From Leptolyngbya sp. PCC 6406 (GTDB lineage: Bacteria; Cyanobacteriota; Cyanobacteriia; Phormidesmidales; Phormidesmidaceae): 64,000 bases of DNA. The translations under genes and the position numbers were made by a program. Positions within the stretch are counted from its first letter, which is position 1; every line of letters begins with the position of its first letter. The stretch spans positions 4,798,769-4,862,768 of the forward strand of contig NZ_KI913949.1 in NCBI RefSeq assembly GCF_000332095.2, read 5' to 3'. Shown in pieces: positions 9,710 through 60,244 of this stretch. Below the pieces are notes generated by a model. It was not told where the DNA came from. It did not search any database and saw only the letters and a program-made list of their open reading frames with translations.

Positions 9710-9743
9710 CTAGGGGCTGTGGACAATCAAAGCCAGATTCCTT
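9710..9743 (+). repeat. Solo end of the 132-bp MITE-like family
   Basis: CTAGGGGCTGTGGACAATCA and the bases after it match the inverted right end of the elements at 43834-43965 and 55379-55510. The rest of the element is missing here. Confidence 0.65.
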
Positions 9744-10875: not shown

Positions 10876-10916
10876 TGCTAGACTCGTACTGGACGGCAGA
10901 AATAACTCACATATTT

Positions 10917-10992
10917 AGTGGAGCAGGAGCCCTTGTGAGACAAAGAATTTCTTTTCATCCTTCTGCCTTCTTACTTCTGCCTTTCTCTACTA
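10917..10992 (-). repeat. Repeat X copy (stop-codon-adjacent repeat)
   Basis: Read on the minus strand it begins CTAGTAGAGAAAGGCAGAAG and ends CACAAGGGCTCCTGCTCCAC. A near-identical copy is at 34467-34537, and split or partial copies are at 33354 and 51890. The leading CTAG contains the TAG stop of the gene at 10990. Confidence 0.7.
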
Positions 10993-11643
10993 GTCGCTCT
11001 GGCTATCCGACAAACCTAAATCCTCTAGATCCGAGAAATCCAGATCATCGCTATCCTCCTCCCGCAGTTCTTCACTGTCAGGGGGTAAAGGTATGGATGC
11101 CGCACCATCACTCTCGGGCTCATAAATCACCGTCGGTAGCCCCGCCCCCTGTAGTCCCTTAAGAATGCGATCGGGGCTCTCAGGAAAAACAACAAAGAGG
11201 GGTCTGACCACATCGGCACCATCGCTGAGGAGATGTTCATGGCGGGCGGGTAGCATCCATTCATAGCCGCGATCCAGCAGAATTTGCGTCCGTCGCCACC
11301 GCATCAACAGATCTGAAAAGTCCTCCTGGGGACGATGGATCAGAATAAATAATTCCACCCCAGTTTTTATCTTCCACTCCGGGTCACACATCAGCAGCAC
11401 GACATCGCAGGGCAAAGCTACGGCTTCCCCAGCGGAGAGGGTGCCTGCCTCAATGGCAACACCTTGAATCGACTGTCGTACCCGAATATTAGGTAGGGGA
11501 ATCGTGACAATACTTTCCTTGGGCCGTCGCATACTGGGAATCGCTTCCAAATACGGACGGTATTGTTTCAACAAGGCTAAGGCCCCGCTGTACTCACTAC
11601 AGGTGGAGAGCAGCGTCTCGTACTGAACCTGTTGGACAGCCAT
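10990..11643 (-). CDS. Conserved cyanobacterial protein with acidic tail, function unknown
   Basis: A 217-residue protein starting MAVQQVQYETLL; a start six codons earlier is possible. I do not recognise a named family. The body is a mixed alpha/beta globular region. The last 35 residues are an acidic low-complexity tail rich in Asp, Glu, Ser and Leu (EEDSDDLDFSDLEDL). No signal peptide or membrane helix is seen. The stop codon lies in the end of a dispersed repeat. The heat-shock gene upstream has its own terminator, so this gene is probably transcribed separately. Confidence 0.7.
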   Translation of the reverse strand: MAVQQVQYETLLSTCSEYSGALALLKQYRPYLEAIPSMRRPKESIVTIPLPNIRVRQSIQGVAIEAGTLSAGEAVALPCDVVLLMCDPEWKIKTGVELFILIHRPQEDFSDLLMRWRRTQILLDRGYEWMLPARHEHLLSDGADVVRPLFVVFPESPDRILKGLQGAGLPTVIYEPESDGAASIPLPPDSEELREEDSDDLDFSDLEDLGLSDSQSD

Positions 11644-11888
11644 GGTGATGACAAACAGCAATTAAGGTGGGCAATGGCTGCATTCTAGCGAACACTCTGC
11701 GCGATCGCCGCTCCGGTTAAGCATCTGTCTATAGTTATAGCTTTGGCCAATTTGCATCAGATGCGGGTACCGCTCTAATGCGTTGTGCCCCAGCAAAGCG
11801 GCTGGCAGTCTTGACCGAATTGGACTGGCGACTGCTATAACCATGAGAATTATCTGTAAGTTGTCCTCATTATCGAGGTATTTACCCT

Positions 11889-12736: not shown

Positions 12737-12804
12737 ATGCTTCCGATATCAACTCAGCCCTGGTATAACCCTAATCCTGGGCCTATGGCCGCTGGACTAT
12801 ACTA

Positions 12805-12875
12805 AACCTTGTCCAAGTCCAGAAGTGGAGTTTTCCCGGTGGGGAAACTCCAGACTTCGAGCTGGACTTGGTATA
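12805..12875. repeat. Palindromic repeat Y, copy 1
   Basis: Outer arms CCAAGTCCAG (12813-12822) and CTGGACTTGG (12862-12871) enclose a second hairpin, GGAGTTTTCCC-ggt-GGGGAAACTCC. A copy with only a few differences lies at 30853-30919. Confidence 0.75.
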
Positions 12876-12878
12876 GAA

Positions 12879-14720
12879 CTAGACAATGGGAGCCATCTTC
12901 ACAGGGTTGTTTGCCAACAATTCCTGTAGCTCCTCTGCATCCACGGTTTCCTTCTCCATCAGCATGGCGGCAAGACTATCGAGGATAGAACGGTTTTCCA
13001 CCAATACCGACTTTGCCCGAATGTAGGCTTGTTCGACAAGTTGGCTCACCTCGGAGTCGATGGTGGAGGCGGTTTCCTCAGAAAAGTCTCGCTCGGAATT
13101 GATATCACGGCCCAGGAACATGTTGCCCTGTTGGCGACCCAAGGTAACTGGCCCTAGACGTTCGCTCATGCCAAACCGGGTGACCATTTGCCGCGCTACT
13201 CGTGCGACCTGTTGCAGGTCGTTAGAGGCCCCGGTGGTGACTTCCTCATTACCGTAGATGATTTCTTCGGCAATACGGCCCCCTAGGGCTACGGCCATCT
13301 GGTTTTGCAGATAGGAGCGAGAGTAGAGCCCCGATTCCATGCGCTCTTCACTGGGGGTAAACCAAGTCAAGCCGCCTGCCCGTCCCCGAGGGATGATGCT
13401 GATTTTTTGCACTGGGTCGTAGTCAGGCATAAGGGCACCGACGAGGGCATGACCCGCTTCATGGTAGGCCACCAGTTCCTTGCGCTTTTCACTCATAACC
13501 CGATCCTTCTTCTCTGGACCGGCGAGGACGCGATCGATGGCGTCGTTCACTTCATCCATAGAGATTTCGGTGAGGTTACGACGGGCCGCTAGGATTGCTG
13601 ACTCGTTGAGTAGGTTCGACAGGTCTGCCCCGGTAAAACCGGGAGTCCGGCGGGCAATACGATCTAGGTCCACATCTTTGGAGAAAGTTTTGCCCCGAGC
13701 GTGGACTTGGAGGATTTCCAGCCGACCAGCAAAGTCTGGGCGATCTACCACGACCTGACGGTCAAAACGACCTGGGCGTAGGAGGGCAGAGTCGAGGACA
13801 TCGGGGCGGTTGGTGGCGGCGATAATGATGATGCCAGTATTGCCCTCAAAACCATCCATCTCGGTGAGAAGCTGGTTTAGGGTCTGTTCCCGTTCGTCGT
13901 TGCCGCCACCGAGTCCGGCACCCCGCTGACGACCCACAGCGTCAATCTCGTCGATAAAGACGATGCAGGGGGCATTGCTCTTGGCTTGTTCAAACAGGTC
14001 TCGAACGCGGGACGCGCCGACGCCAACGAACATTTCCACAAACTCAGAACCAGAGATGGAGAAGAACGGGACTCCCGCTTCCCCAGCGACGGCACGGGCT
14101 AAGAGGGTTTTACCGGTTCCCGGAGGCCCTACAAGCAATACCCCTTTGGGAATTTTGGCCCCGATGGCGGTGAAGCGGTCGGCGTTTTTCAGGAAGTCAA
14201 CGACTTCCGTTAGTTCTAGCTTGGCTTGCTCAATGCCTGCTACATCCCCAAAGGTAACTTGGGTTTGGGGCTCCATCTGCACTCTTGCCTTGGACTTTCC
14301 AAAGTTCATGGCTTGGCTGCCAGGGCCATTCTGTGCCCGCCGGAGAACAAAGAACAGCACTACCAGCAGCAGGATGGGAATCAAGAAGGTGCTGAACAGC
14401 CGCACCAAGGCTCCATCATCTCCTTGGGGGAAGACTACGATGTCAACGTTGTTTTGCTCTAGAAGCCCAATGAGTTCGGGGTCATTGGGTAGGTTGACGG
14501 TGACTTGGCCGCTGCCATCTGGAGCGGTGAAGCGGGCGCGCGCCCGATCGGCACTGATGCTGACCCGTTCAATAGTGTTGCTTTCAACGGCATTCAGGAA
14601 GCGGCTGTAGCGCCAGCTTTGGGTTTCCTGACCCGAGTTGTCTAAGATTGCTGTGGCAATGGCGATCACCGCCACTACGAGCAATGCGTACAATCCTGCG
14701 TTTCTCCACCGCTTATTCAC
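12879..14720 (-). CDS. ftsH: ATP-dependent zinc metalloprotease FtsH (FtsH3-like)
   Basis: A membrane-anchored hexameric AAA+ protease that degrades damaged membrane proteins; in cyanobacteria FtsH complexes act in photosystem II repair and stress regulation. The protein has 613 residues from the GTG at 14720. That start has GGAGG upstream and gives [14 protein letters not shown]; an upstream ATG would add 20 residues. Two N-terminal membrane segments flank a short lumenal/periplasmic domain. Next come Walker A GPPGTGKT (about residues 197-204), the SRH region and the zinc site HEAGH (about 418-422). The sequence resembles Synechocystis FtsH3 (slr1604) more than FtsH2, as judged from memory. 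Confidence 0.96.
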
Positions 14721-27994: not shown

Positions 27995-30850
27995 CTAGAT
28001 CTCGTCATTCAATTGGGTCAAGATGCGCTCCAGATCGCGTTGGGCTTGACCATAGCCATCCCAGTCCCCCGCTTGGAGGGCAGTCTGTCCAGCGGTGTAG
28101 GCATCCAGGGCCGCTTGGATCTGGGCTGCCACCTCTGGGGTTGCCGGTGCCTGGGGAACGGCCACCTGATCGGGGTCAAGGGTAGCTTCCGCCTCCGGTG
28201 CCGCATCGGGATCAGCCGCCCCAAAGATTTCAACAAGCGCGGCATCCAGCGTCTCCGCCATGACAATGCGATCGCTATAGGCCACAATCACCCGCCGCAG
28301 TTCCGGCAGTTCCCCCTGCTCCGCCCGCAGATACACCGGCTCCACATAGAGCAGCGATCGCTCAATGGGAATCACCAACATATCTCCCCGGATCACCCGT
28401 GATCCCTCTTGACTCCAGAGGGTAAGCTGCTGAGAAATCTCAGGGGTTTGGTTAATGCGGGCTTCGATTTGGCTGGGGCCGTAGATCAACCGCTCTTTAG
28501 GAAACTGGTATTCCAACAGCGTGCCGTAGCTATCGCCATCGGAGCGCCCCGCCAGCCATGCCACCATGTTGTCGCGGTTCACAGGGGTAAAGGGCATGAT
28601 CTGGATGAACTCCTCGGGGCTGGTGTCCGGGAGCCGCATGATGGTGTGGTAGGGCTCCATCATCACCGACGCGCCTTCGTAAATCTGCATGGGGAAGCGC
28701 CACACATCCTCTCGGTTGTAAAACACCTCGGGGTTGGCCATGTGGTAGGTCCGGTACATGTGGGCCTGGAGGGTGAAGAGATCCTGGGGATAGCGAAAGT
28801 GTTCTTGCAGGGCGGAGGGCACCGTCGTCATATCCTGAAACAGGTTGGGGAAAATCTTGCGGTAGGTGGACAGGATCGGATCGGTCCCATCTAGGGCATA
28901 GAAGGTAAGGCTGCCATCGTAGGCGTCAATCACGACCTTGGCGGCATCGCGGATGTAGTTGGTGCCCCGACGGGCGATCTGGGCTAGGACGGGATTCCCC
29001 AGGATGTCATTTACGTCGCTGCTGCGAATGAGGGGCTGGGAATAGGGATAGCGATCGCTGGTGGTGTAGGCATCCAGCACCCACTTCAAGCGTCCCTCCA
29101 CCACAGCAATGTAGGGATCGCTGTCGTAGGTGAGGAACGGGGCGACCTGCCGTGCCCGCTCTACAATTTGCCGATGATAGTGAACACGGGAATCCGGGAT
29201 GAAATAGTTGGAAATCAGTGCATTGAAATCCCCCAGTTCAAAGGCATAGGCTAGCCGTCGCCCCAGGGAGCCTATGGGCACACCGCCGCTGCCCTCGTAG
29301 CGATTAACGGCATTGTCGTTTCCTAGGGGATAGTCAAATTCGTCGGTGTCGGTGCCCGTGAAGATGTAGTTTCGGGTCGCCTCACCGTAGTAGATCCGGG
29401 GTTCCTCCAAAGCCAGATCGATATCAATCACGGGGGGAATGTTTCTGATCATGAGTTCCGGCAGACCATCCGTCGTCGCCTGGTTCACCGGACTCATGAC
29501 GATGCCGTAGCCATGGGTAAATTTGAGCCGCTGATTGACCCAGGTTTGGGCCTCGGGGGCAGCTTGGCTGTAGTCCATTTCCCGAGCGGCCACCATCACC
29601 TGACGGTAGTTGCCGTCCAGGGTGTAGCGATCCACGTCTACATCCTGGAATCGGTAGTAGAGGCGAATTTCCTGGAGTTGGCGGTAGGTGCTGAGGATGG
29701 GGCGGTAGTCCCAGAGGCGAATGTTGTCTACCGTGGGACTATTGGCGGTGAGGTCAGCCTGGGTCAGACTGGCCTCGGCGGGAAAGTCATTACTCTCCAC
29801 CGTCGCTAAACCATAGGCGTCGCGGGTGTAGGCAATGTTGTGCTCAATGTAGGGCTGTTCCCTGACCAATTCATTGGGAGCGACTTGGAATCGTTGCTGA
29901 AACCAGGGATAGAAACCGCTGACCAGCACTAACACGGCTACATACAACACAATGCCGACGCTGGGCAGCAAAAAGCCGCTGCGTCCAAGGGAAACGATGA
30001 ACAGCGCTGCCACCGCTAGGGTGACAAAGGCCATCATCCAGTAGGCTTGCAGGCGAGCATTAACATCGGTAAATCCGGCCCCAAAGATGATCCCTGAGGG
30101 GGAGAACAGAAGTTCGTACCGCTCTAGGTAGAACCCTACGGCGATGAGCACGGCCAGTCCCGCCAGCAGCAGACACAGGTGGGTCTTGGCAGCCCCAGTG
30201 AGGAAATATTTCCAGCCCCGCTCTGGTCGAATTTCCCCCTTTAGGGCATAAACTGCGATCGCAATTGCCAAGGCCCACAGCACCAGTTGCAGTAACCCCA
30301 GTTGCAGCCCCTGATAAATCGGCAGTTGAAAAAAGTAGAAGGAGAGGTCTTGCTGAAAGAGGGGATCCCTCTGGTCAAAGGGGGTGAGGTTCAAAAACTG
30401 GAGGATGCTGTCCCAGGCAGCAGCTCCCTGAAGAGCGATGCCAAAGGCCACCACGAGACTAAGTGCGATCGCGCCATAGCTGGGCAAAACCGCCAACCGG
30501 GGAATCGGGGGAGCATTCTTCCCCAGCCGCCAGGGAGAATCCCGAGTTAGGGCTGCTGCCAGACCGTAGTTGGCTAACAAAAAGCCCGCCGCCAGGACCA
30601 GGGTAGCCAGCCAGATCAACCCCTGCCAGCGAATCCGCCGCCAAAAGACATCGGCATAGTCCACCGCAGCAAACCACCAGGATTCCGTCAGCAGGTGGAT
30701 CACCGCTCCCGACAACACGAGGACCAACACCACAGCGATCGCCGGAAATAGAATGAGGGGAGGCCGACGACTACTTTTGTAGGAAGCACTGGAGGAAGAA
30801 CGTTTCACAGTAAAAAACCGACAGAAAAAACCGACAAGACTAGATCTCAA
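27995..30850 (-). CDS. UPF0182 family membrane protein
   Basis: A 951-residue member of the UPF0182 family, found in cyanobacteria, actinobacteria and clostridia; its role is not known. The first third holds about seven membrane helices (from LILFPAIAVVLVLVLSGAVI onward). It is followed by a large exported domain with family segments such as ANELVREQPYIEHNI, YFIPDSRVHYHRQIVERA and LLYVEPVYLRAEQGELPELR. The C-terminal 80 residues are acidic, Ala/Pro-rich and end in a helical stretch. The N-terminal 15 residues before VKRSSSS may be extra. Repeat Y lies immediately upstream. Confidence 0.93.
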   Translation of the reverse strand: MRSSLVGFFCRFFTVKRSSSSASYKSSRRPPLILFPAIAVVLVLVLSGAVIHLLTESWWFAAVDYADVFWRRIRWQGLIWLATLVLAAGFLLANYGLAAALTRDSPWRLGKNAPPIPRLAVLPSYGAIALSLVVAFGIALQGAAAWDSILQFLNLTPFDQRDPLFQQDLSFYFFQLPIYQGLQLGLLQLVLWALAIAIAVYALKGEIRPERGWKYFLTGAAKTHLCLLLAGLAVLIAVGFYLERYELLFSPSGIIFGAGFTDVNARLQAYWMMAFVTLAVAALFIVSLGRSGFLLPSVGIVLYVAVLVLVSGFYPWFQQRFQVAPNELVREQPYIEHNIAYTRDAYGLATVESNDFPAEASLTQADLTANSPTVDNIRLWDYRPILSTYRQLQEIRLYYRFQDVDVDRYTLDGNYRQVMVAAREMDYSQAAPEAQTWVNQRLKFTHGYGIVMSPVNQATTDGLPELMIRNIPPVIDIDLALEEPRIYYGEATRNYIFTGTDTDEFDYPLGNDNAVNRYEGSGGVPIGSLGRRLAYAFELGDFNALISNYFIPDSRVHYHRQIVERARQVAPFLTYDSDPYIAVVEGRLKWVLDAYTTSDRYPYSQPLIRSSDVNDILGNPVLAQIARRGTNYIRDAAKVVIDAYDGSLTFYALDGTDPILSTYRKIFPNLFQDMTTVPSALQEHFRYPQDLFTLQAHMYRTYHMANPEVFYNREDVWRFPMQIYEGASVMMEPYHTIMRLPDTSPEEFIQIMPFTPVNRDNMVAWLAGRSDGDSYGTLLEYQFPKERLIYGPSQIEARINQTPEISQQLTLWSQEGSRVIRGDMLVIPIERSLLYVEPVYLRAEQGELPELRRVIVAYSDRIVMAETLDAALVEIFGAADPDAAPEAEATLDPDQVAVPQAPATPEVAAQIQAALDAYTAGQTALQAGDWDGYGQAQRDLERILTQLNDEI

Positions 30851-31167
30851 CCTTGCCCAAGTCCAGAAATGGAGCTTTCCCGGTGGGGAAACTCCAGATT
30901 TCGAGCTGGACTTGGTATAAAGCTACATGAGCCCCATTCAAGCTCTGTCTACCCTAGCGCTGCTGGCAGCGAGATATGGAGTGAACCCCTAGTTTTTTAC
31001 ATTCGCACCATTGCGTTTCCCAAAGGGCTCAGTATACTTTCAGGACATCTAGGTCACGCTGAAATACCAGGGATGCATCTATATCTGGTGTCCAGTCCCC
31101 GGTTTAGGGGTCAAGAACCCCCTAAAGGGTTGGCCCAATTCCATTTAGGTACGTTTATTAGGGATAT
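30851..31167. other. Intergenic region upstream of divergent genes
   Basis: Contains palindromic repeat Y copy 2 and a hairpin-forming stretch, TTTAGGGGT-caag-AACCCCCTAAA (about 31099-31125), in the leader of the gene at 31168. No gene was seen. Confidence 0.55.
30853..30919. repeat. Palindromic repeat Y, copy 2
   Basis: CCAAGTCCAG (30857-30866) and CTGGACTTGG (30906-30915) enclose GGAGCTTTCCC-ggt-GGGGAAACTCC. It differs from copy 1 at a handful of positions. Confidence 0.75.
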
Positions 31168-33357
31168 ATGAATAATCCCCGTCCATGGCCCTACGGGCAG
31201 CGACCCGTTAACCCGCCCTCGCCCCCAGTGACCGCTGCGGGCAGTGCCAAGATGCCGCCACCGCGACGGGGACAGCAGCCCCGCCCGAATCTGCAACCCC
31301 CAAATCCACGATGGTCAGAGACCGGCCCAAAGGGGCCATCGCAGTGGGTCAACTCCAGCCCCGGAGCCACCATGCCCCCGCCCGCCCCCAAAGCGGAGGC
31401 GCGCTCGATCTATCCTGCGCCCAAGCAGCCCCGATCCAGACAGCCCGCGTCCAAGCCATCTGAACCCAGAGACCCTACCCCACAAAAACCAACCCGTCAG
31501 CGGCGTTCTGCTTCCCGTGCCCAGACCGAGGTCGCCTCCCTGAGATCTCAGCTAGACACCCCCGCTACCGACCTCCGCCCCTCCCTCTGGATTCGTCTTG
31601 CCAGCAATTGGACCCTATGGGCCTTAGTCGCCTTAGCCTTATTTGGGGGGGTAGCGACAGCCTCCGCCGTGAGTCTGTTTCGCATTCCTAACCTGCCCAA
31701 CTGCCGCGCCATCTTCTGGCCCTTGGCCTCCGCCTCAACCCGCCTGCAATGTGCAGACGCCTACGCTGATCAAGGCTCCGTAGAAAGTCTCCTAGCAGCT
31801 ATTTCCCTGGTGGAAAGACTGCCCCAGGATCATCCCCTCCGTAGCGACATTGACGAACGAGTCGAGCGCTGGGCCGAACAGATTTTGACTATTGCCGACC
31901 GTACCTTCCATGAAGGAGACCTGCAAGAAGCCATCGCCATTGCCCGCCGCATCCCCGGACACACCGCCGCTGCGGCCCTAGTCGTGGACCGCATTGCAAC
32001 CTGGGAAGACATTTGGCAAAAAGCAAGCACTATTTTTGCCAATGCTGAAACCTATCTCCAGGAAGGTAAGTTCCGCGAAGCCTTCGGCGAGGCAATCCAA
32101 CTTCGTAATGTGGGGAATGACTATTGGCAAACCACCAAATATGAGGAACTGCTGAACCTGATTACGGCGGCACGGCGGGATATAAATCTTCTGGGTCAAG
32201 CCCGTCGCCTAGCAGAACGGGGAAGCGTAACGGCAATCTTAGAGGCTCTAGAGCTAATTGGTCAGATTCAGGATACGAGCCCCCTCCATGGGGAAGCTCA
32301 AACCTTGATGAAGGAAATCAGCCGCAAACTGCTGGATCTGGCAGAGAATGCCCTAGCACGAGCTGACAGTGCCAGTGCTTTGGACATTCTGGGCAAGATT
32401 CCCCCTAAAGCCGGACTGGCCGGGGAAGTTGCCGATTTCAAAACCCTAGCGGAAGCCTACGAACTCACCTGGGACAACTCCACCATGGGCTATGAGACCG
32501 CCATTCTGCGGCTCCAGAGTATTAGTCGCGATCGTCCTCTCTACAGCCGCGCCCAAGCCCTGATTGGTGAATGGCAGCAACAGGTAGAGGGGTTGGCCCT
32601 CCTGGACTGGTCTCGACGGGTGGCAGAACCCGGCACCGTGGCAGATCTGCGGGCCGCCATCATCGAAGCCCGCCGGATCGGGCGAGACAATCCCCGTTGG
32701 CAAGACGCCCAGCAGCAAATCGACCGCTGGCAGCGGGAAATTTCTCGCATCGAAGACGGCCCCTACCTATCCCAGGCCAAGGCTCTTGCTGGGGCAGGGG
32801 ATCGCGCCGCCCTCAGCGCCGCCATCGAAACAGCCCAGGTGATTCCACGCGGGAGCAGCCTCTACAGTGAAGCCCAGGATCTGATTGCAGACTGGCGCTG
32901 GGAAATACAACGCCTCGACCATGCACCAATCTTGGCCCAGGCCCGTCAACTCGCCGCTGCGGGGAATTTCTCCCAAGCGATCGCCGTAGCCTCCCAAATT
33001 CCCCAGGGCCAAGCCCTCCATAGTGATGCCCAAAGCCTAGTCAGAACCTGGCGCGGGGAAGTCAGTGGCGGCGACCAACTCCAGCGGGCTTACCAAAGCG
33101 CCCAAGGCGGCACCATCGCTGCTTTGGTGCAAGCTATTAATATCGCTCGGGAGGTTCCCGAAGGTAGCAGTCGCTGGAGTGAGGCCCAAGGCGTCATCAA
33201 CCAGTGGAGTTGGGATATTCTCCGTAGTGCAGAAAGTGAGGCGAATCGCGATCTGCCCCAGGCGATTCAAATCGCGCGGCAGGTGCCTGCCCGCACCGAA
33301 GCCTATGCCTCTGCTCAGCTCAAAATCCAAGAATGGACCGCCTTGTCAAACCCCTAG
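31168..33357 (+). CDS. Large membrane-anchored helical-repeat protein, Pro-rich N-terminus
   Basis: 729 residues in three parts. Residues 1-140 are Pro/Arg/Ser-rich and disordered. A single membrane helix (WTLWALVALALFGGVATASAV) sits near 145-170. The remainder is a chain of about eight degenerate repeats of roughly 50-65 residues. The repeat pattern is A-x-G-(x)n-A-I-x-x-A-x-x-I-P-x-G-S-x-L-Y-x-E-A-Q-x-x-I-x-x-W. Cys residues appear just after the membrane segment. Related cyanobacterial proteins are sometimes labelled chromosome segregation ATPase, but no ATPase motif is present. By topology the repeats would be periplasmic or lumenal, suited to protein binding. Confidence 0.8.
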   Translation: MNNPRPWPYGQRPVNPPSPPVTAAGSAKMPPPRRGQQPRPNLQPPNPRWSETGPKGPSQWVNSSPGATMPPPAPKAEARSIYPAPKQPRSRQPASKPSEPRDPTPQKPTRQRRSASRAQTEVASLRSQLDTPATDLRPSLWIRLASNWTLWALVALALFGGVATASAVSLFRIPNLPNCRAIFWPLASASTRLQCADAYADQGSVESLLAAISLVERLPQDHPLRSDIDERVERWAEQILTIADRTFHEGDLQEAIAIARRIPGHTAAAALVVDRIATWEDIWQKASTIFANAETYLQEGKFREAFGEAIQLRNVGNDYWQTTKYEELLNLITAARRDINLLGQARRLAERGSVTAILEALELIGQIQDTSPLHGEAQTLMKEISRKLLDLAENALARADSASALDILGKIPPKAGLAGEVADFKTLAEAYELTWDNSTMGYETAILRLQSISRDRPLYSRAQALIGEWQQQVEGLALLDWSRRVAEPGTVADLRAAIIEARRIGRDNPRWQDAQQQIDRWQREISRIEDGPYLSQAKALAGAGDRAALSAAIETAQVIPRGSSLYSEAQDLIADWRWEIQRLDHAPILAQARQLAAAGNFSQAIAVASQIPQGQALHSDAQSLVRTWRGEVSGGDQLQRAYQSAQGGTIAALVQAINIAREVPEGSSRWSEAQGVINQWSWDILRSAESEANRDLPQAIQIARQVPARTEAYASAQLKIQEWTALSNP

Positions 33358-33424
33358 GGCGGGAAGGCAGAAGGCAGAAGGATGTAAGGCTTTGCCCGTG
33401 CGTAGCAGGATGAAAAGGACTGTC

Positions 33425-33655
33425 ACAACTTGGAAGGTTACAGAGAACTGAGCCCATTGACTGCTGGCTAAGCGGAGTCGTTCGCGCAGCGTCTCCCGAA
33501 GGGAGAAAGCCAGCCACATCACCGGGTTCTGGCCGTTCCCTAGCCCCTCCGGGGCGGCAAAGCCAACGACTCTGCTCAGGGAACTGGATGTCTGTATGGA
33601 GACAACGACTTAGCAGGCTTTTCAGCTTGTTTTAAGACATAACCTTCCAAGTCGT
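33425..33655. mobile_element. 231-bp MITE-like element inserted in repeat X
   Basis: Terminal inverted repeats ACAACTTGGAAGGTTA and TAACCTTCCAAGTCGT (15 of 16 match). Flanking 8-mers GGACTGTC and GGACTTCC look like a slightly decayed target-site duplication. It has no coding frame. Sequence on both sides matches the uninterrupted copy of repeat X at 34467-34537. Confidence 0.7.
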
Positions 33656-33821
33656 GGACTTCCTCGTTTCACAAGGGCTCCTGCTCTACCAAATAGGTGA
33701 GTTATTGCTGCCATCGTCGCGTCGTCGCGCAAGCGTCCCGCTTGCCGCAGTGTTAGCACAGCGTGACACATCAATCCGAGTTGAACACCCTATCCCCCCA
33801 AACTGGTGCCTGAACACCCGT

Positions 33822-34115: not shown

Positions 34116-34534
34116 GGGTTTGGCTCCGTAATTTAGCTCGACAGAAAGAAAAATCTCAGTAAACCTTATCGGTTCGTTAAAGAAAGCTTATCACCCAAAT
34201 TCGAGCCATGCCGTTAAGTTATCTAATCGTTCTTACCGATCCCCGATGGGATTTCATGCCGATTCCGGCTAGGACAATAAAAGGCTGAAACCCTTGTATG
34301 AAAAAGCCCTGGACAATTGCCAGGGCTTTTTAAGAGGGCGACACAGGCCGCAATATTGTTCACAAAAGTTTTTTGCGGACTGTTACGGGCTAGCGGTATC
34401 CACTCCGCCCTTCCGAGGCTGGAATCCGCCAGAAGCTAGTACTCGACGGCATAAAAACTTGCCTATTTGATGGAGCAGGAGCCCTTGTGAGACCAGGAAT
34501 TCCTTTTCTGCCTTCTGCCCTCTGCCTTTCTGTA
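34116..34534. other. Intergenic region with terminator and repeat
   Basis: No gene. Contains a strong hairpin at 34301-34331 and repeat X at 34467-34537. Confidence 0.6.
34301..34331 (-). terminator. Intrinsic terminator (bidirectional)
   Basis: AAAAAGCCCTGG pairs with CCAGGGCTTTTT around a 7-nt loop. It probably ends transcripts of the TPR gene to the right. Confidence 0.82.
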
Positions 34535-34537
34535 CTA
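34467..34537 (-). repeat. Repeat X copy
   Basis: On the minus strand: CTAGTACAGAAAGGCAGAGG, then repeated GGCAGAA units, then CTCACAAGGGCTCCTGCTCC. Its first CTAG contains the stop codon of the TPR gene. Confidence 0.75.
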
Positions 34538-34957
34538 GCTGTCAAAGAGCCATGTGCGTACCCGCTCTAGACTTTTCCAGTCCGGACGACGGCGTAATCC
34601 ATCTTCAAGATTTTCCCGCACTTCCTGACGCAGTTCCTCTGACACCATCATCACCTGAGTCACCAGTTCGATGTGATCCCGCACCCCCTTCTTCCCCGTT
34701 TCCAGGTAGGCGATGGCTAAATTGATCCGCGATTGGGGATCTTGGGGGTTGAGCTTCACTGCCCGCTGGGCAGTCTTGAAGGCGAGGGATCCCTTGCCCT
34801 CAAGCAGGTATAGCCATGCTAGGCAGGTGAAGGCGGCGCTGCTTTTGGGGGCGCGATCGCAAACCTCCTTGAACAGGGGAATCAGTTCCGCTACCGGATC
34901 CCCTGCTTTATACCGGGCAATACCTTGATCAAATAGCGATTCAGCGCTCTGAGTCAT
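34535..34957 (-). CDS. Small tetratricopeptide-repeat protein
   Basis: A 140-residue soluble protein from the ATG at 34957, which gives MTQSAESLFDQGIARYKAG; a frame 13 codons longer looks spurious. At least two TPR units are visible: LFDQGIARYKAGDPVAELI, and SAAFTCLAWLYLLEGKGSLAF joined to TAQRAVKLNPQDPQSR. It is probably a protein-interaction module of unknown partner. The stop codon falls in a repeat X end. Confidence 0.8.
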   Translation of the reverse strand: MTQSAESLFDQGIARYKAGDPVAELIPLFKEVCDRAPKSSAAFTCLAWLYLLEGKGSLAFKTAQRAVKLNPQDPQSRINLAIAYLETGKKGVRDHIELVTQVMMVSEELRQEVRENLEDGLRRRPDWKSLERVRTWLFDS

Positions 34958-43833: not shown

Positions 43834-43965
43834 CTAGGACCTGTAGACAAGTAACGGGGAAACCCTTGCGAGGTAGGCATGACCACGCCCGCCCTAATGA
43901 ATCAAGCTAGGGGCTGTAACCGCCCCATAACCAGGAATCTGGCTTTGATTATCTACAGCCCCTAG
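43834..43965. mobile_element. 132-bp MITE-like element, copy A
   Basis: Starts CTAGGACCTGTAGACAAGTA and ends ATTATCTACAGCCCCTAG. The right half is itself a palindrome (CTAGGGGCTGTA with TACAGCCCCTAG). A copy of identical length is at 55379-55510. The final CTAG supplies the stop codon of the gene at 43962. Confidence 0.75.
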
Positions 43966-44282
43966 TCCGCCCTCGGTCCCACCGGAAACCGCCGCACCTG
44001 GAATTCCCGAGCATTTTCCAGGGTATAGGCCACCCCCAAGGCTTGGTCAAACTGGACCTCAATCGCAGTTAAATCCGTCTCGGAAATCGCCTTCCACTCC
44101 TCCCGACTGCGCCAGCGAATCATCAGACTCACCAACTCGGCATCTGTGGGATCCAGCCAGGTTTCCTTCGACAAAAAACCGGGATAGCGCCGCAGGGCAG
44201 GGGTCCAAATTTCCTCATCCAATTGCACATAGCGCTCTCGCTGGTCGGCAGGCACCCGAAACTCAAGCCATTCAATCACCAC
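43962..44282 (-). CDS. Cyanobacterial TIGR03792-type protein
   Basis: 106 residues starting MVIEWLEFRVPADQRERYVQ. The pattern of a dimeric alpha/beta barrel (antibiotic biosynthesis monooxygenase-like fold) is visible: EEIWTPALRRYPGFLSKETW, then LMIRWRSREEWKAI. This matches a cyanobacterial family catalogued as TIGR03792, with no known function. The TAG stop and everything after it belong to a MITE end, so the original C-terminus may have been altered. Confidence 0.78.
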   Translation of the reverse strand: MVIEWLEFRVPADQRERYVQLDEEIWTPALRRYPGFLSKETWLDPTDAELVSLMIRWRSREEWKAISETDLTAIEVQFDQALGVAYTLENAREFQVRRFPVGPRAD

Positions 44283-46091: not shown

Positions 46092-46752
46092 AGTAACAGA
46101 TTGTCGTCAGCACACATTCAGCGATAGTCCCTAATCAGGGTCAGAGCGCTCTAGCCCGACAATTCACAGCACACCTGACCATCACCTAATACACCCAGAA
46201 TGCTGCTGTCCAGGATTGCTTGGCTCGGAGCAGAACGCTAGGGGCTGTCATCAATTCATGTCAGAACCTTTGTTGTACAACGGCTACAGCCCCTAGCCAT
46301 ATCACAGGACCGGGCGCGGCAATGCTTACCCGGCAAGGCTTTCACCCGTAATTGATGACGCGCCCTAACCGAAGGGAAAACGTCAGGAATACCTGACAAA
46401 AATCCGAAACCTTATTCAGGGACTAAGCGTCTGGTAACCAGGCATATCAGGAATGGAATCATAGAGATATATCAGGAGAGACAATCTGGCTCCCGACAAA
46501 TCTAGGACACTATTACCACATGCCTGAGGGGTAAAACGGGTGACGAATCCCCTGCACACCATCAATTTTAAGAGAATCAACGGATATCCCATAGCGTCTA
46601 CTACGGCAAAGCATGAAGCTCCTATGAAGATGTGGGATATCCCTGTAATCTTTCTGTAAAAGGACTAGGGGGCAATCCCCCTAGAGGGTTTCAGCTAAAC
46701 CCCTATTCTGAATCTGGGTAGAGGCCAGAGTATAGATTAGCCAGAGTATAGA
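46092..46752. other. Long intergenic region with MITE and hairpins
   Basis: 661 bp without a supported gene. It holds a 130-bp MITE-like element (46238-46367) and a GTCAGG-aata-CCTGAC hairpin (about 46382-46397). A GGATATCCCA/TGGGATATCC inverted pair lies at 46582-46642. A compact stem CTAGGGGG-caat-CCCCCTAG follows at 46665-46684. Confidence 0.6.
46238..46367. mobile_element. 130-bp MITE-like element, copy C (diverged)
   Basis: Ends CTAGGGGCTGTCATCAATTC and AATTGATGACGCGCCCTA. The interior (CAAGGCTTTCACCCG) is the reverse complement of the left-arm region of copies A and B, with several differences. Confidence 0.7.
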
Positions 46753-50958: not shown

Positions 50959-51017
50959 GGATTCTTTATACGCTGGCATAGGCATTAAGCTGAGGGCAAT
51001 GCCCTTGGGTGCTGCTA

Positions 51018-51893
51018 ATGGGATCTCCTCTCTGGCCCGACCACCACCAAGATCCGGTTTATCTCTGGCCCGCCAGCGCGATCGCGGCCCTCGCCATCCA
51101 TGGGGCTGGCCTCTGGGGCTGGGTTGTACAAGCCCGTAGTGCTGCCTCGGTTCCGCCCGCTGCGATTGAACTGGTCACGCTAACGGAGATCTCTGGAACC
51201 TCGGCCCCAACGGTAGCCTCTAGAAATATGCAGACCGGGACTGAACAAACCGGGACTGAAGCACTCCCCGAAGTATCCCTGCCTACAGCGATGGCTCCCA
51301 ATACGGCCTCCTCGGAAACGTCGGATTTACCGACCCTTCCTCCAGTGCAACCGGAGAGCCCCCCCAGTAGCACCTCATCCCCCGCCCCCAGAGCTAGCCC
51401 ACCCACGACTCCTGGCTCCTCGCCCACTCCTGTTCCCCCTACAAATGGCAGTGGTAGTGCCAATGGTAGTGGCAATGGCAATGGCAGCAGGAATAGCAAT
51501 GGCAATGAAACAGCCCCAGCGGGAGACGGTGTGCAAACCCGCTGGGCCATAGACTGGGTTCCCGAAGCCCGCGATCGCCCCGATACCCTGCCCCAATTGC
51601 CACCGGGTTGGCAGACCCGCTACCTACGGGTCACCGACTATCCCCAATGCCTGTCCCAGGAACTGGTCAGTCGTTCCGCCAGCGTGACCGTCAGACTCCA
51701 AATCCTGGTGGATGAAAGTGGTCAAATCCTAGGATCATGGGTGCTGCAATCCAGCGGCAACACGGTCTACGATCGCGCCATGCAATGTATTGTTCAAAAT
51801 CAAACCCAGCCCCTGATTCCCGCCACGATCGCCGGAACCCCCATTCTCTCTGACGCCGCCCTGCTAGAAATTGCCGGGGTGATTACACCCTAG
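51018..51893 (+). CDS. TonB-like protein with Pro/Ser/Asn-rich linker
   Basis: About 291 residues from the ATG at 51018; a GTG at 51009 is also possible. One hydrophobic segment (LWPASAIAALAIHGAGLWGWVV) near the N-terminus anchors it in the membrane. A long linker rich in Pro/Thr/Ser becomes an Asn-Gly-Ser run near residues 143-162. A TonB-C-like domain follows from about residue 195 (SVTVRLQILVDESGQILGSW, then NTVYDRAMQCIV). It probably spans the periplasm. No ExbB/ExbD or receptor genes are close. The stop codon touches a repeat X-like sequence. Confidence 0.78.
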   Translation: MGSPLWPDHHQDPVYLWPASAIAALAIHGAGLWGWVVQARSAASVPPAAIELVTLTEISGTSAPTVASRNMQTGTEQTGTEALPEVSLPTAMAPNTASSETSDLPTLPPVQPESPPSSTSSPAPRASPPTTPGSSPTPVPPTNGSGSANGSGNGNGSRNSNGNETAPAGDGVQTRWAIDWVPEARDRPDTLPQLPPGWQTRYLRVTDYPQCLSQELVSRSASVTVRLQILVDESGQILGSWVLQSSGNTVYDRAMQCIVQNQTQPLIPATIAGTPILSDAALLEIAGVITP

Positions 51894-52235
51894 TACCGCA
51901 AGGCAGAAGGAGGAAAGGGGATTTCAGGACACACATAGGTGGGTGGGGGAGTTTTGAATTTTGAATGGAATGTCTCGTAGGGGCGGGTTTAGCCGGGATT
52001 GGGTAGGTGATTTAGGAATGGGCTGGCAAAACCCGCCCTGCCTGTCCGTGTAGCCCCCTACAGAACTTTCAAACATTCCCTGCGAAGTCTTTACCAAACG
52101 AGTTCATGGGGAGCTTCGGGGTTTGTTACGCTGATGGGAACACTTAGGTTGCCTCCGACACATAGCGGCCCATTGCCCCCATGTTGGCTGATATGTAAAT
52201 TCTAAATTCTTGCCTCGTTATCGTTATCCCCTGCC
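51894..52235. other. Intergenic region with repeats
   Basis: Begins with a repeat X-like GGCAGAAGG stretch (51890-51915) and contains a REP-like palindrome (51977-52048). The phosphatase promoter should lie near 52080-52230. Confidence 0.6.
51977..52048. repeat. REP-like palindrome, copy E
   Basis: GTAGGGGCGGGTTTAGCC on the left and CAAAACCCGCCCTGCC on the right, with the same GGAATGGGCTGG interior as copy A. Confidence 0.8.
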
Positions 52236-55378: not shown

Positions 55379-55510
55379 CTAGGGCGTGTGGACAATTAAC
55401 GGGGAAATCCTTGCGAGGTAGGCATGACCACGCCCACCTTACTAAATCAAGCTAGGAGCTGTAGCCGCCCCATAATCAGGATCTGGCTTTGTATTATCCA
55501 CAGCCCCTAG
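55379..55510. mobile_element. 132-bp MITE-like element, copy B
   Basis: Starts CTAGGGCGTGTGGACAATTA and ends TATTATCCACAGCCCCTAG. It has the same length and order as copy A at 43834-43965. The left arm also closes on itself (GGGCGTG with CACGCCC). Confidence 0.8.
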
Positions 55511-55584: not shown

Positions 55585-57690
55585 ATGAGTTTAACGATTC
55601 CGCAAAATCCCTTACTGGTTGGCGAAGGACTGCCTCCTTTCGACAACATTCAGCCGCAGCATGTGGTGCCCGGTATACACCAGCTTTTGGAGACTCTAAA
55701 CCAGGAACTGGAGACCCTAGAGGCTCGGGTTCAGCCTAGCTGGGAGGATTTGGTAGAGCCCCTAACCCGTATTGAAGAGCGCCTGCGCTGGAGTTGGGGA
55801 ATTATCAGCCACTTGATGGGGGTGAAAAACAGCTCCGAACTCCGGGACGCCTACGAATCAGTACAGCCCGCTCTAGTGAAATTTTCCAGCCGTTTAGGTC
55901 AGAGTCGGCCCCTCTACCGGGCGTTTAAGCAACTGCAAGAGGGAAACGGGTGGACAACCCTGGATCTTGCCCAGAGGCGCATTGTAGAAGCAGCCATTCG
56001 GGAAGCGGAACTCTCGGGTGTGGGCTTAGAGGGCAGCACGAAGGAGCGCTTTAACGAGATCCAGCAGTCGCTGGCGGAGCTTTCTACCAAGTTTTCTAAT
56101 CACGTTCTGGATGCGACCAAGTCCTTCAGTCTGACCCTAAGCACCCCGGAAGACATTGAGGGGTTGCCCCCCAGTCTGCTGGCTTTGTCGGCCCAGGCAG
56201 CTCAGGAAGCAGCGGATGAAGATGAGCAGGAGTTTCAGGAGCAGGCGCAGGCAGCAGGGCCATGGCGCATTACTCTGGACTATCCCAGCTATGTACCGTT
56301 TCTACAGCACAGTCGGCGGCGAGATCTGCGAGAACAGGTCTATCGTGCCTTTGTCACCCGTGCCGCCTCTGGGGAGTGGGACAATCAGCCCATCATTGAG
56401 CGTACGCTGGAGCTACGGCAAGAAATGGCGCAAATTTTGGGCTATGCCACCTATGCGGAACTCAGTATTGCGCGTAAAATGGCCCCCTCGGTAGCGGCAG
56501 TAGAGCAGTTGATGGAGGAACTGCGGCGGGCGAGTTACGACGCGGCAGTGAAAGAATTGGCCGATCTCCAGAACTTTGCCCAAGCGAAGAGGGCGGCAGA
56601 GGCGGAGGATCTGAAGCAGTGGGATGTGCCTTTCTGGGCGGAGCGGATGCGGGAGGAACAGTATGGCCTCAATGACGAAGAGTTACGCCCCTACTTTCCC
56701 TTACCTCAGGTATTAGAGGGATTGTTTGGCCTAGCTCACCAATTGTTTGGGGTCACGATTACCCCCGCCGATGGAACAGCTCCGGTATGGCATTCAGATG
56801 TGCGCTATTTCCAGGTTGCTGACGAAGGGGGGCAAGTGATCGCACATTTTTACCTTGACCCCTACAGCCGTCCCTCAGAAAAGCGCGGCGGGGCCTGGAT
56901 GGATGAATGTGTCAACCGGGGTAAGTTTGGCACTGTTATCCGGCTACCGGTGGCCTATTTGATCTGTAACCAGTCTCCCCCGGTGGCGGGAAAGCCCAGC
57001 CTGATGACCTTTAGGGAGGTGGAAACCCTATTCCACGAATTTGGCCATGGCCTTCAGCACATGCTGACCCAGGTGGACTATCCTGGTGCGGCGGGCATCA
57101 ACAATGTGGAGTGGGATGCGGTGGAACTGCCCAGCCAGTTTATGGAGAACTGGTGTTATCACCGGGACACGTTGCTCACCCTAGCTCGCCATTACGAAAC
57201 AGGAGCGCCGTTGCCGGAGAAACTCTACCAGCGCTTGCTACTGGCCCGAAATTTCATGACGGGCTCCGCCATTTTGCGGCAGGTGAACTTTGGCTGGCTG
57301 GATCTGGAACTGCACCACCGCTACCGCGCCGATGGCGAAGAAACAATCTGGGATGTGCGCGATCGCTTTGCAGCCAAAACCATGGTGTTGAAGCCGTTGC
57401 CAGAGGATGCGTCGCTCTGTTCCTTTGGCCATATCTTTGCCGGGGGCTATGCGGCGGGTTACTACAGCTATTTCTGGGCAGAGGTGCTCAGTGCTGATGC
57501 CTTTGCGGCCTTTGAGGATGCGGGTCTGGAGGATGAAACCGCGATCGCGGAAACAGGGCGGCGGTTTCGCAATACGGTGTTAGCCATGGGGGGAAGTTGC
57601 CATCCCATGGAGGTGTTCAAATCCTTCCGAGGAAGAGAGCCCAGCACCGCTGCGCTACTCCGTCACCGAGGGCTGAGCACTGCTGCCTAG
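55585..57690 (+). CDS. prlC: Oligopeptidase A (M3 family metallopeptidase)
   Basis: A 701-residue cytosolic zinc peptidase that clears short peptides, including cleaved signal peptides. The zinc motif HEFGH has His484, Glu485 and His488. The third ligand Glu follows in EWDAVELPSQFMENW, and the C-terminal GHIFAGGYAAGYYSYFWAE block is diagnostic of the family. N-terminal MSLTIPQNPLLVGEGLPPFD is as in cyanobacterial homologues. The TAG stop is part of a CTAGGGGGTGTGAACAAT sequence resembling a MITE end. Confidence 0.95.
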   Translation: MSLTIPQNPLLVGEGLPPFDNIQPQHVVPGIHQLLETLNQELETLEARVQPSWEDLVEPLTRIEERLRWSWGIISHLMGVKNSSELRDAYESVQPALVKFSSRLGQSRPLYRAFKQLQEGNGWTTLDLAQRRIVEAAIREAELSGVGLEGSTKERFNEIQQSLAELSTKFSNHVLDATKSFSLTLSTPEDIEGLPPSLLALSAQAAQEAADEDEQEFQEQAQAAGPWRITLDYPSYVPFLQHSRRRDLREQVYRAFVTRAASGEWDNQPIIERTLELRQEMAQILGYATYAELSIARKMAPSVAAVEQLMEELRRASYDAAVKELADLQNFAQAKRAAEAEDLKQWDVPFWAERMREEQYGLNDEELRPYFPLPQVLEGLFGLAHQLFGVTITPADGTAPVWHSDVRYFQVADEGGQVIAHFYLDPYSRPSEKRGGAWMDECVNRGKFGTVIRLPVAYLICNQSPPVAGKPSLMTFREVETLFHEFGHGLQHMLTQVDYPGAAGINNVEWDAVELPSQFMENWCYHRDTLLTLARHYETGAPLPEKLYQRLLLARNFMTGSAILRQVNFGWLDLELHHRYRADGEETIWDVRDRFAAKTMVLKPLPEDASLCSFGHIFAGGYAAGYYSYFWAEVLSADAFAAFEDAGLEDETAIAETGRRFRNTVLAMGGSCHPMEVFKSFRGREPSTAALLRHRGLSTAA

Positions 57691-57790
57691 GGGGTGTGAA
57701 CAATAAATCTGTGTTACCTTATCTCCAGTGCAAACAATTGCACAATGACCTGAGATAAAAACCGTCCAGGGAATTAAGGAGGTGATGCCC

Positions 57791-58753: not shown

Positions 58754-60244
58754 ATGTCTGTACAACTTTGGAAGGCGGCTCTCATGAGCCCTGCGCTTCT
58801 AGGCATTGCGTTAACCAGCAGCGCGATCGCAGTTGAAGCTCCCAGCATTGAAATCGAAGCTCCCAGCGTCGAAACCCTAGACACGATTGCAGTCGAAGAG
58901 CCCGTACAACTGGCTCAAGTCGCCAGTGTTAACGACCTCAGCGACGTTCTGCCCTCCGACTGGGCCTACACCGCGCTACAAAACCTGGTAGAAACCTACG
59001 GTTGTATCGAGGGCTATCCCAACCGTACCTTCCGGGGTAACCAAGCCCTGACCCGCTACGAGTTCGCTGCCGGTTTGAACGCCTGTCTGGACGTGATTGC
59101 TGACCTCATCACCGGAGGTGGAACAGACGGTAGCACCCTCGCCACCATCCAGCGCCTTCAGCAAGAGTTCCAAGCTGAACTCGCCACCCTGCGCGGTCGT
59201 GTGGATGCCCTAGAAGCAGAAACCGCTCAGCTTCGCGCTCAGCAGTTCTCCACCACCACCAAGCTACGGGGTCAAGTGGACGCCAACTTGGTTGTCCCCT
59301 TCGGTAATATTGCGGCTACTCCAGCTAACCCTGGCCCTGATAGCTTTACAACCTTCAACACCCGAGTTCGTTTGAACTTCGACACCAGCTTCACCGGACG
59401 AGATCGCCTCCGCACCCGTCTACAGGCTCGTGATGGTAACGCTATCCCGACGGCTGGCGGTCTTGCCAATGGCGGTAGTGATAGTGGTCCTGGCAACTTG
59501 AATGTAGCCCTAGATGACTTCTTTTACCGTTTTCCTATTGGTAGCCGCGTGACAGCGACTCTGGCTGCTAACTCCGTTTCAAAGGACAGCTTTGTAACGA
59601 GCACAATCGTTCCCTTTGATGGCCCCAGCGTCGCTGACCCCGGTGGTCCTGCGCTCTACGACTTTGATATGGGTGGCGATGGCTTTGGTGGTGGTCTGAG
59701 CTTCCAAATTACGGACAGCTTGGTCTTTGACACTGGTTATTCTGCTGCTCGTGGTGGTTCTAACAATCCCAACCAGGGTGGTATCTTCGGTGCAAATCGT
59801 CAGAGCTACATTGCTCAACTGAGCTTCTTGCCAGAAGGCTTCTTCAATGCTGCATTGGTGTACATGCACGGCAGTAATAACAACAACAACGCATCAGCTT
59901 TCACGAATACCTATGGTGCCCTCGCTAGCCTAGATTTTGGCCGCTTTATCCTAGCGGGCTACTTTGCCCACCATGACGAATCGGGAACACCTCGGAGCAC
60001 CGATAGCTGGCAGATTGGGGCCGCTTTCCCCGACCTGTTTCTAGAAGGCTCTGAACTGGGTGTGTACTACGCTAGCCTGCCTAGCTACAATTCCCGCCCC
60101 TACATGGTTGAGGGCTACTACGCTATTCCCGTGAGCCGTAACCTCACCCTGACTCCTGCTCTGATCTACGGCAACCTCGACCGTAACTCCGCCGTTGATG
60201 TCAACAACTTCTACGGTGCTATCCGGGCGACCTTCACCTTCTAG
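58754..60244 (+). CDS. SLH-domain outer membrane porin (first of tandem pair)
   Basis: A 496-residue porin of the cyanobacterial SLH/OprB-like (iron uptake porin, SomA/B-like) family. It has a signal peptide at 1-28 ending SSAIAVEA and an SLH domain at about 65-125 (LPSDWAYTALQNLVETYGC, then NRTFRGNQALTRYEFAAGL) for binding peptidoglycan-linked polymer. A short coiled coil (LQQEFQAELATLRGRVDALE) leads to a beta-barrel ending in the usual Phe (ATFTF). Such porins dominate the cyanobacterial outer membrane and pass inorganic ions. Ribosome site GAGGAAAGTGAG precedes the ATG. Confidence 0.93.
   Translation: MSVQLWKAALMSPALLGIALTSSAIAVEAPSIEIEAPSVETLDTIAVEEPVQLAQVASVNDLSDVLPSDWAYTALQNLVETYGCIEGYPNRTFRGNQALTRYEFAAGLNACLDVIADLITGGGTDGSTLATIQRLQQEFQAELATLRGRVDALEAETAQLRAQQFSTTTKLRGQVDANLVVPFGNIAATPANPGPDSFTTFNTRVRLNFDTSFTGRDRLRTRLQARDGNAIPTAGGLANGGSDSGPGNLNVALDDFFYRFPIGSRVTATLAANSVSKDSFVTSTIVPFDGPSVADPGGPALYDFDMGGDGFGGGLSFQITDSLVFDTGYSAARGGSNNPNQGGIFGANRQSYIAQLSFLPEGFFNAALVYMHGSNNNNNASAFTNTYGALASLDFGRFILAGYFAHHDESGTPRSTDSWQIGAAFPDLFLEGSELGVYYASLPSYNSRPYMVEGYYAIPVSRNLTLTPALIYGNLDRNSAVDVNNFYGAIRATFTF

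Follow-up and report, generated by a model that had tools for sequence, protein, structure and literature searches.

Repeats with CTAG edges and the stop codons of neighbouring genes in Leptolyngbya sp. PCC 6406

Gene ends and repeat copies in the window

In the window, that is, the whole stretch of 64,000 nucleotides of Leptolyngbya sp. PCC 6406 that was analysed, six genes end in a TAG stop codon that lies within the edge of a short dispersed repeat. Four of these stops lie on edges of a repeat of about 103 bp, named X, and two on edges of a miniature inverted-repeat element of about 132 bp, named M. The features are as follows, with positions counted from the first letter of the window.

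9710..9727, plus strand: single M edge, away from called stops
10883..10993, minus strand: copy of repeat X; the minus-strand gene 10990-11661 has its TAG stop (10992-10990, minus strand) within the CTAG of this copy at 10990-10993
33354..33420 (end approximate), plus strand: first piece of a split X copy, whose CTAG at 33354-33357 holds the TAG stop (33355-33357) of the plus-strand gene ending at 33357
33656..33716, plus strand: second piece, apparently of the same X copy
34436..34538, minus strand: full X copy with CTAG on each edge, of which 34535-34538 holds the TAG stop (34537-34535, minus strand) of the minus-strand gene ending at 34535
43834..43965, plus strand: copy of the MITE M, whose CTAG at 43962-43965 holds the TAG stop (43964-43962, minus strand) of the minus-strand gene 43962-44282
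46238..46367, plus strand: sister element M2 (CTAGGGGCTGTCATCAAT), away from any stop, with numerous copies in the relative G003
51890..51935 (end approximate), plus strand: edge of an X subfamily, CTAGTACCGCAAGGCAG, with further exact copies in the genome; its CTAG at 51890-51893 holds the TAG stop (51891-51893) of the plus-strand gene 51009-51893
55379..55510, plus strand: complete M copy, away from any stop
57687..57704, plus strand: M-type edge CTAGGGGGTGTGAACAAT, containing the TAG stop (57688-57690, plus strand) of prlC (oligopeptidase A)

The preliminary description had attributed the stops of the genes ending at 10990 and 34535 to the terminal CTAG of X and that of the gene at 43962 to a MITE end, and had placed the prlC stop at 57690 within MITE-like sequence; all four are present as described, and for the M-type edge at prlC a second edge was looked for and not found. 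It had also seen X-like sequence behind the stops at 33357 and 51893. The spacing at the four GGCAGAAGG sites is identical (TAG, 7 nt, AGGCAG), and these two stops are therefore X edges too. The split X copy appears to be interrupted by an insert (33421-33655, approximate), and sequence similar to this insert also occurs in the relatives G001, G002 and G003.

CTAG is frequent in the window, with 244 occurrences. A further repeat pair (12802-12881 and 30846-30925) is 91 percent alike, and one of its copies adjoins a TAG stop at 12879. Two neighbouring similar ORFs of 496 and 491 aa (58754-60244 and 60491-61966), each with CTAG at its end, are probably the result of a tandem duplication.

Element edges, target site and stop counts

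The counts below refer to 752 kb of the 5.78-Mb genome (three contigs), composed of the window and 117 stretches (about 688 kb) around places with elements; 19 of the 84 places with element-edge matches lay outside this sample (2 on contig C2 and 17 weak places with two mismatches), and the element list is partial, the two candidate scans having scored 40/133 and 40/66. Genes were taken from a codon-usage caller written for this analysis, which misses small genes. Stop positions are independent of the start codon chosen, and a lower caller threshold gave the same picture of stops at edges. The edge counts contain both copies of one duplicated segment (776574 and 783565), exclude the 33357 edge, which is too diverged, and leave out some X BLAST matches that are covered as 3-kb loci.

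Both repeats are short and multicopy. X, as seen in the full copy at 34436-34538, has the ends CTAGTACAGAAAGGCAG and CTAGTACTCGACGGCAT. M was found in 66 complete copies, mostly 120-137 bp from edge to edge, with the inverted terminal repeats GGGCTGTGGACAAT and GGCGTGTGGACAAT; it reads GGCGTGTGGACAAT...ATTGTCCACAGCCC between two flanking CTAGs, and its ends are also written CTAGGGGCTGTGGACAAT. When the attributes of a MITE were tested, small size, multiple copies and inverted terminal repeats were found for M and X, and target duplication for M. CTAG or TTAG stands on both edges of M, X and a resident insertion sequence (IS) of the IS630 family, in agreement with the earlier suggestion that the elements target CTAG. 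Tandem M copies, which overlap by one common CTAG, likewise back this suggestion. Such copies occur as a group of three at C1:2165056-2165443 and a group of two at C1:4215812-4216070, with a single CTAG between neighbours, as if the later copy had been inserted into the edge of the earlier one.

The edge pairs of complete M copies bear on what is duplicated upon insertion. CTAG/CTAG was found in 43 of 66 copies, TTAG/CTAG in 10, TTAG/CTAA in none and CTAA/CTAG in two. The ten TTAG/CTAG pairs together with the lack of TTAG/CTAA favour a duplication of TA alone, with the terminal G belonging to the element; the two CTAA/CTAG copies speak against this unless they have mutated, and the CTAG/CTAG pairs (43 in M, as well as 11/11 copies of the IS) fit a two-base or a four-base duplication alike. 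The duplication of TA rather than of four bases is thus deduced from M, and the same is presumed for X. TTAG occurs mostly at the GGCGTG edge of M (14/75 edges, compared with 4/95 of the other edge), and M2 in G003 is asymmetric likewise (7/35 edges compared with 1/36, based on the 30 of 40 M2 matches that had loci). This near-confinement of TTAG to one edge of M and M2 indicates that either the target choice or the direction of insertion is asymmetric.

The resident IS is 1.3 kb long and present in 11 full-length copies, in all of which a DDE_3 (PF13358) transposase scores above the cut-off and CTAG flanks both sides. X and this IS have 15/20 end bases in common at each end, as counted by eye, and to judge from these ends the IS may mobilise X. 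A transposase for M was looked for among the genome's PF13358 and PF13586 elements and not found. Two other IS considered as partners, an IS630-type one ending in TATAGCGG and one ending in AGAGGGTGTCTGA, were rejected, as their ends are unlike those of M or X. In other cyanobacteria three widely spaced M-type edge pairs were found (L280, L282 and L308), and an autonomous M was discarded after the ORFs between the edges of L282 and L308 had proved unlike transposases by eye. Directly outside nine of the 11 IS copies stands CTAGTAC of another repeat. One IS copy adjoins the CTAG edge of M and another adjoins that of X, and old elements thus appear to offer landing sites at their edges.

Stops were found exactly at the element edge far more often than elsewhere. 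At 30/170 M edges and 17/50 X edges an inbound gene has its TAG stop precisely on the edge; the X edges were collected mostly with a CTAG-containing pattern, so that those whose CTAG is intact are favoured. Distance 0 forms a sharp spike (47/220 edges) and other distances are thinly spread, whereas only 68/1647 other non-coding CTAG orientations in the same 752 kb lie at a stop; edges inside called genes are few (M 6/170, X 2/50). Nineteen of the 66 complete M copies lie at a stop. After removal of one duplicated and three tandem copies, 18 of 62 independent insertions remain, to be compared with 78 of the 988 stop or intergenic CTAG sites (Fisher test, odds ratio 4.8, p 3e-6); of the CTAG sites outside elements, 1871 lie within genes, 910 are intergenic and 78 are at stops. 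In another group of CTAG-ended repeats, 5/25 inbound genes have their stop within 4 bp of the edge.

The spike recurs in G003 and in a set of 63 loci of other cyanobacteria, drawn from at least 80 loci (115 stretches) among the matches listed after 17 that were non-cyanobacterial by title had been omitted; in the tests outside this genome, edges with less than 300 bp upstream were dropped and YTAG was required at the edge. We therefore give next to no credence to the idea that the repeats simply land anywhere within spacers and meet stops by coincidence. TAG stops are indeed frequent (281/549 called stops in the fetched stretches), but the spike at distance 0, its recurrence in other genomes and the behaviour of two dispersed repeat families without CTAG ends, in which the stop lies within 4 bp of the edge in 0/13 and 0/18 inbound genes (0/31), all stand against it. 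This bears out the earlier impression that six gene ends in the window exceed random landing. These two families also agree with CTAG being the target.

Probable restoration of stops rather than shortening of genes

The elements are very probably non-autonomous and of the IS630 type, inserting at CTAG, copying TA and beginning with G, so that TAG is restored on both sides. X and M would thus be non-autonomous transposons that target CTAG, and in the case of M also TTAG. Upon insertion the central TA would be duplicated and, with an element that starts with G at each end, the target C-TAG would become C-TA[G...element...C]TA-G, in which each edge reads CTAG. A gene that ended in the target CTAG would accordingly retain its stop and its whole protein, and so would both members of a convergent pair whose stops lie in a single CTAG. 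Insertions inside genes would presumably be lost by selection, leaving survivors in spacers and on CTAG stops, and in short spacers the CTAG stops would make up a large share of the remaining sites. As TAG is rebuilt on both sides, gene ends, even a CTAG common to convergent genes, would be harmless landing sites, and among the few such places for M and X.

The preliminary description had also considered that the elements terminate genes in place, in which case the edge would supply a new stop and the C-termini would be shortened. The letters of the stop do lie within the repeat edge. Yet at five sites in the window the protein ends in nearly the same place, to within about 4 residues, in relatives that lack the element, and at three of these sites (34535, 43962 and 10990) the CTAG stop is already present in at least one element-free relative. 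In G001, where no X copy is present, the orthologue of the gene ending at 34535 has its stop at the same residue and likewise in CTAG. For the gene ending at 43962, the orthologues in G001, G002 and G003 stop in CTAG without M, with lengths of about 107, about 107 and about 102 aa compared with 106. In five genomes the end of the orthologue differs by no more than about 3 aa from that of the gene ending at 10990, and in one of these (G010) it is in CTAG. At the remaining two sites the relative has a TAA stop: the prlC orthologue of G003 has 700 aa compared with 701 aa, and the G001 orthologue of the gene ending at 33357 is 4 aa longer, a difference in the direction that shortening would give. 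For the gene 51009-51893, a DNA search of G001, G002 and G003 found no orthologue. The alignment with relatives, which had been proposed for detecting shortened C-termini, thus revealed small differences and no clear shortening.

The reading frames point the same way. In the 752 kb, 47 genes have their stop at the edge and 5 enter the element in another frame, whereas random truncation would place about two thirds in other frames; the corresponding counts are 12 and 1 for the 63 loci from other cyanobacteria, and 8 and 0 for G003. Moreover, with CTAG as the target, a C-TAG in frame is a stop even before the insertion, and the edge has none to create. An M copy between two convergent genes, a mutL-like gene and one for an L12 C-terminal domain, has both stops at its edges (C1:4379478/4379602). 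Of the 10 MutL orthologues examined, eight end within 3 aa and the others are broken off early; in G003 the partner gene has the same end residue. Profile matches for Peptidase M3, MutL and the L12 C-terminal domain extend almost to the ends of the profiles. The two genes were not found as neighbours in the relatives searched, and a common CTAG as the original target of this M copy is accordingly a deduction. Given the frame bias and the conserved protein ends, the shortening of genes in place is highly improbable, and annotators should not take such edges as gene truncation.

Residual preference for stops and comparison with known systems

Compared with all other non-coding CTAGs, the excess of edges at stops is about 5- to 7-fold in this genome, and the odds ratio is 2.7 in each of the two outside sets (other cyanobacteria and G003). 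Much of it disappears when the available CTAGs are considered. In spacers of up to 150 bp, where stop CTAGs make up 20/50 of the available sites, 14/26 M and 7/13 X insertions lie at stops, giving an odds ratio of 1.75 each, which is not significant; the ratios are borderline (about 2 to 2.7) in spacers of up to 250 bp and significant in those of up to 400 bp (3.4 for M and 2.7 for X, with stricter gene calls). When the stop was compared with the next 50 bp in this genome, copies were distributed 51:17 against 55:53 for free CTAGs with other repeats masked (p 0.002), or against 71:85 unmasked; with masking this corresponds to 0.93 copies per free CTAG at the stop and 0.32 within the next 50 bp. 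The preliminary description had held that a genome-wide overlap no higher than random would speak against its observation. The overlap is clearly higher than that, although most of the excess is due to the target sequence. CTAG targeting, combined with the loss of insertions that do harm, accounts for the general pattern, and an approximately 3-fold preference for stops in this genome is left over as a small testable puzzle.

It is possible, but unlikely, that M and X are directed to gene ends or stops by more than the choice of CTAG, e.g. by transcription or by the DNA structure at 3′-ends. The threefold preference for stop CTAGs over those 1-50 bp downstream in this genome is what such steering would produce, and copies at stops show no difference in age from those elsewhere (17 and 44 copies, p 0.99). 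Against it, the same comparison in the 63 loci of other cyanobacteria gave 12:9 against 40:31 (odds ratio 1.03), that in G003 gave 8:1 against 13:5 (p 0.63), none of the 11 copies of the IS630-family element lies on a stop, and the short spacers of up to 150 bp showed no significant excess. Slightly less probable still is selection that retains copies at 3′-ends as terminators or mRNA stabilisers, as proposed for REP and BOX-like repeats. Edges do favour the 3′ side of genes, with an odds ratio, relative to all other non-coding CTAGs, of 6 here and 2.7 in other cyanobacteria, but the excess is at the exact stop and not within the following 50 bp (M 11/170 compared with 80/1647 in the background), and copies at stops are neither older nor more conserved.

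Three further candidates for the residual preference were tried and rejected. Avoidance of terminators was dropped as 54-base contexts fold alike at and near stops (few sites, 19 and 7, respectively), an extended target motif as the base composition beside CTAG is weak, and longer survival at stops as divergence is alike and single edges lie at stops in 9/38 cases compared with 19/66 for complete elements. CTAG targeting with restoration of TAG remains the reading that we prefer for the stops at edges.

Both the targeting of CTAG and repeats that contain stop codons have been published before, and in the open-licence literature searched no link between the two was found. IS630 of Shigella reportedly prefers the TA in CTAG, an observation said to go back to Tenzen and Ohtsubo in 1991. 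The resident IS resembles IS630 / Tc1-mariner elements in its DDE_3 transposase and in the CTAG on both sides, whereas X and M differ from such IS in being non-autonomous and, in the case of M, in accepting TTAG, mostly at one edge. A passage of PMC2170065 states that ISY100 of Synechocystis duplicates TA. According to the relevant part of PMC3189936, MITEPsy1 of Pseudomonas syringae targets CTAG or YTAA; it has a four-base duplication and IS5-like ends, in contrast to M, whose edges fit a TA duplication better. An IS5-type four-base scheme predicts TTAG/CTAA pairs, which were found in 0/66 copies of M, while the 43 CTAG/CTAG pairs suit either scheme. PMC3049150 presents RUP of pneumococcus and Nezha of cyanobacteria as short repeats that presumably owe their movement to a resident IS with similar ends (IS630-Spn1 and an ISNpu3-like element, respectively), and X can be likened to them, by description rather than by sequence comparison, in that a resident IS has similar ends.

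With regard to stop codons, the closest parallel is the BOX repeat of Streptococcus pneumoniae, which was compared for this phenomenon alone. For 36 of 58 overlapping genes the stop codon lies inside the repeat, and the part of PMC3049150 concerned with BOX reports no strong evidence of truncation. BOX differs from M and X in sequence and in its modular structure (boxA-boxB-boxC), and its account, in the same part of that article, comes without a target-site reason. For M and X, a CTAG target, the copying of TA and an element that starts with G would rebuild TAG on both sides and thus offer a mechanical reason why repeats seem to encode stops.
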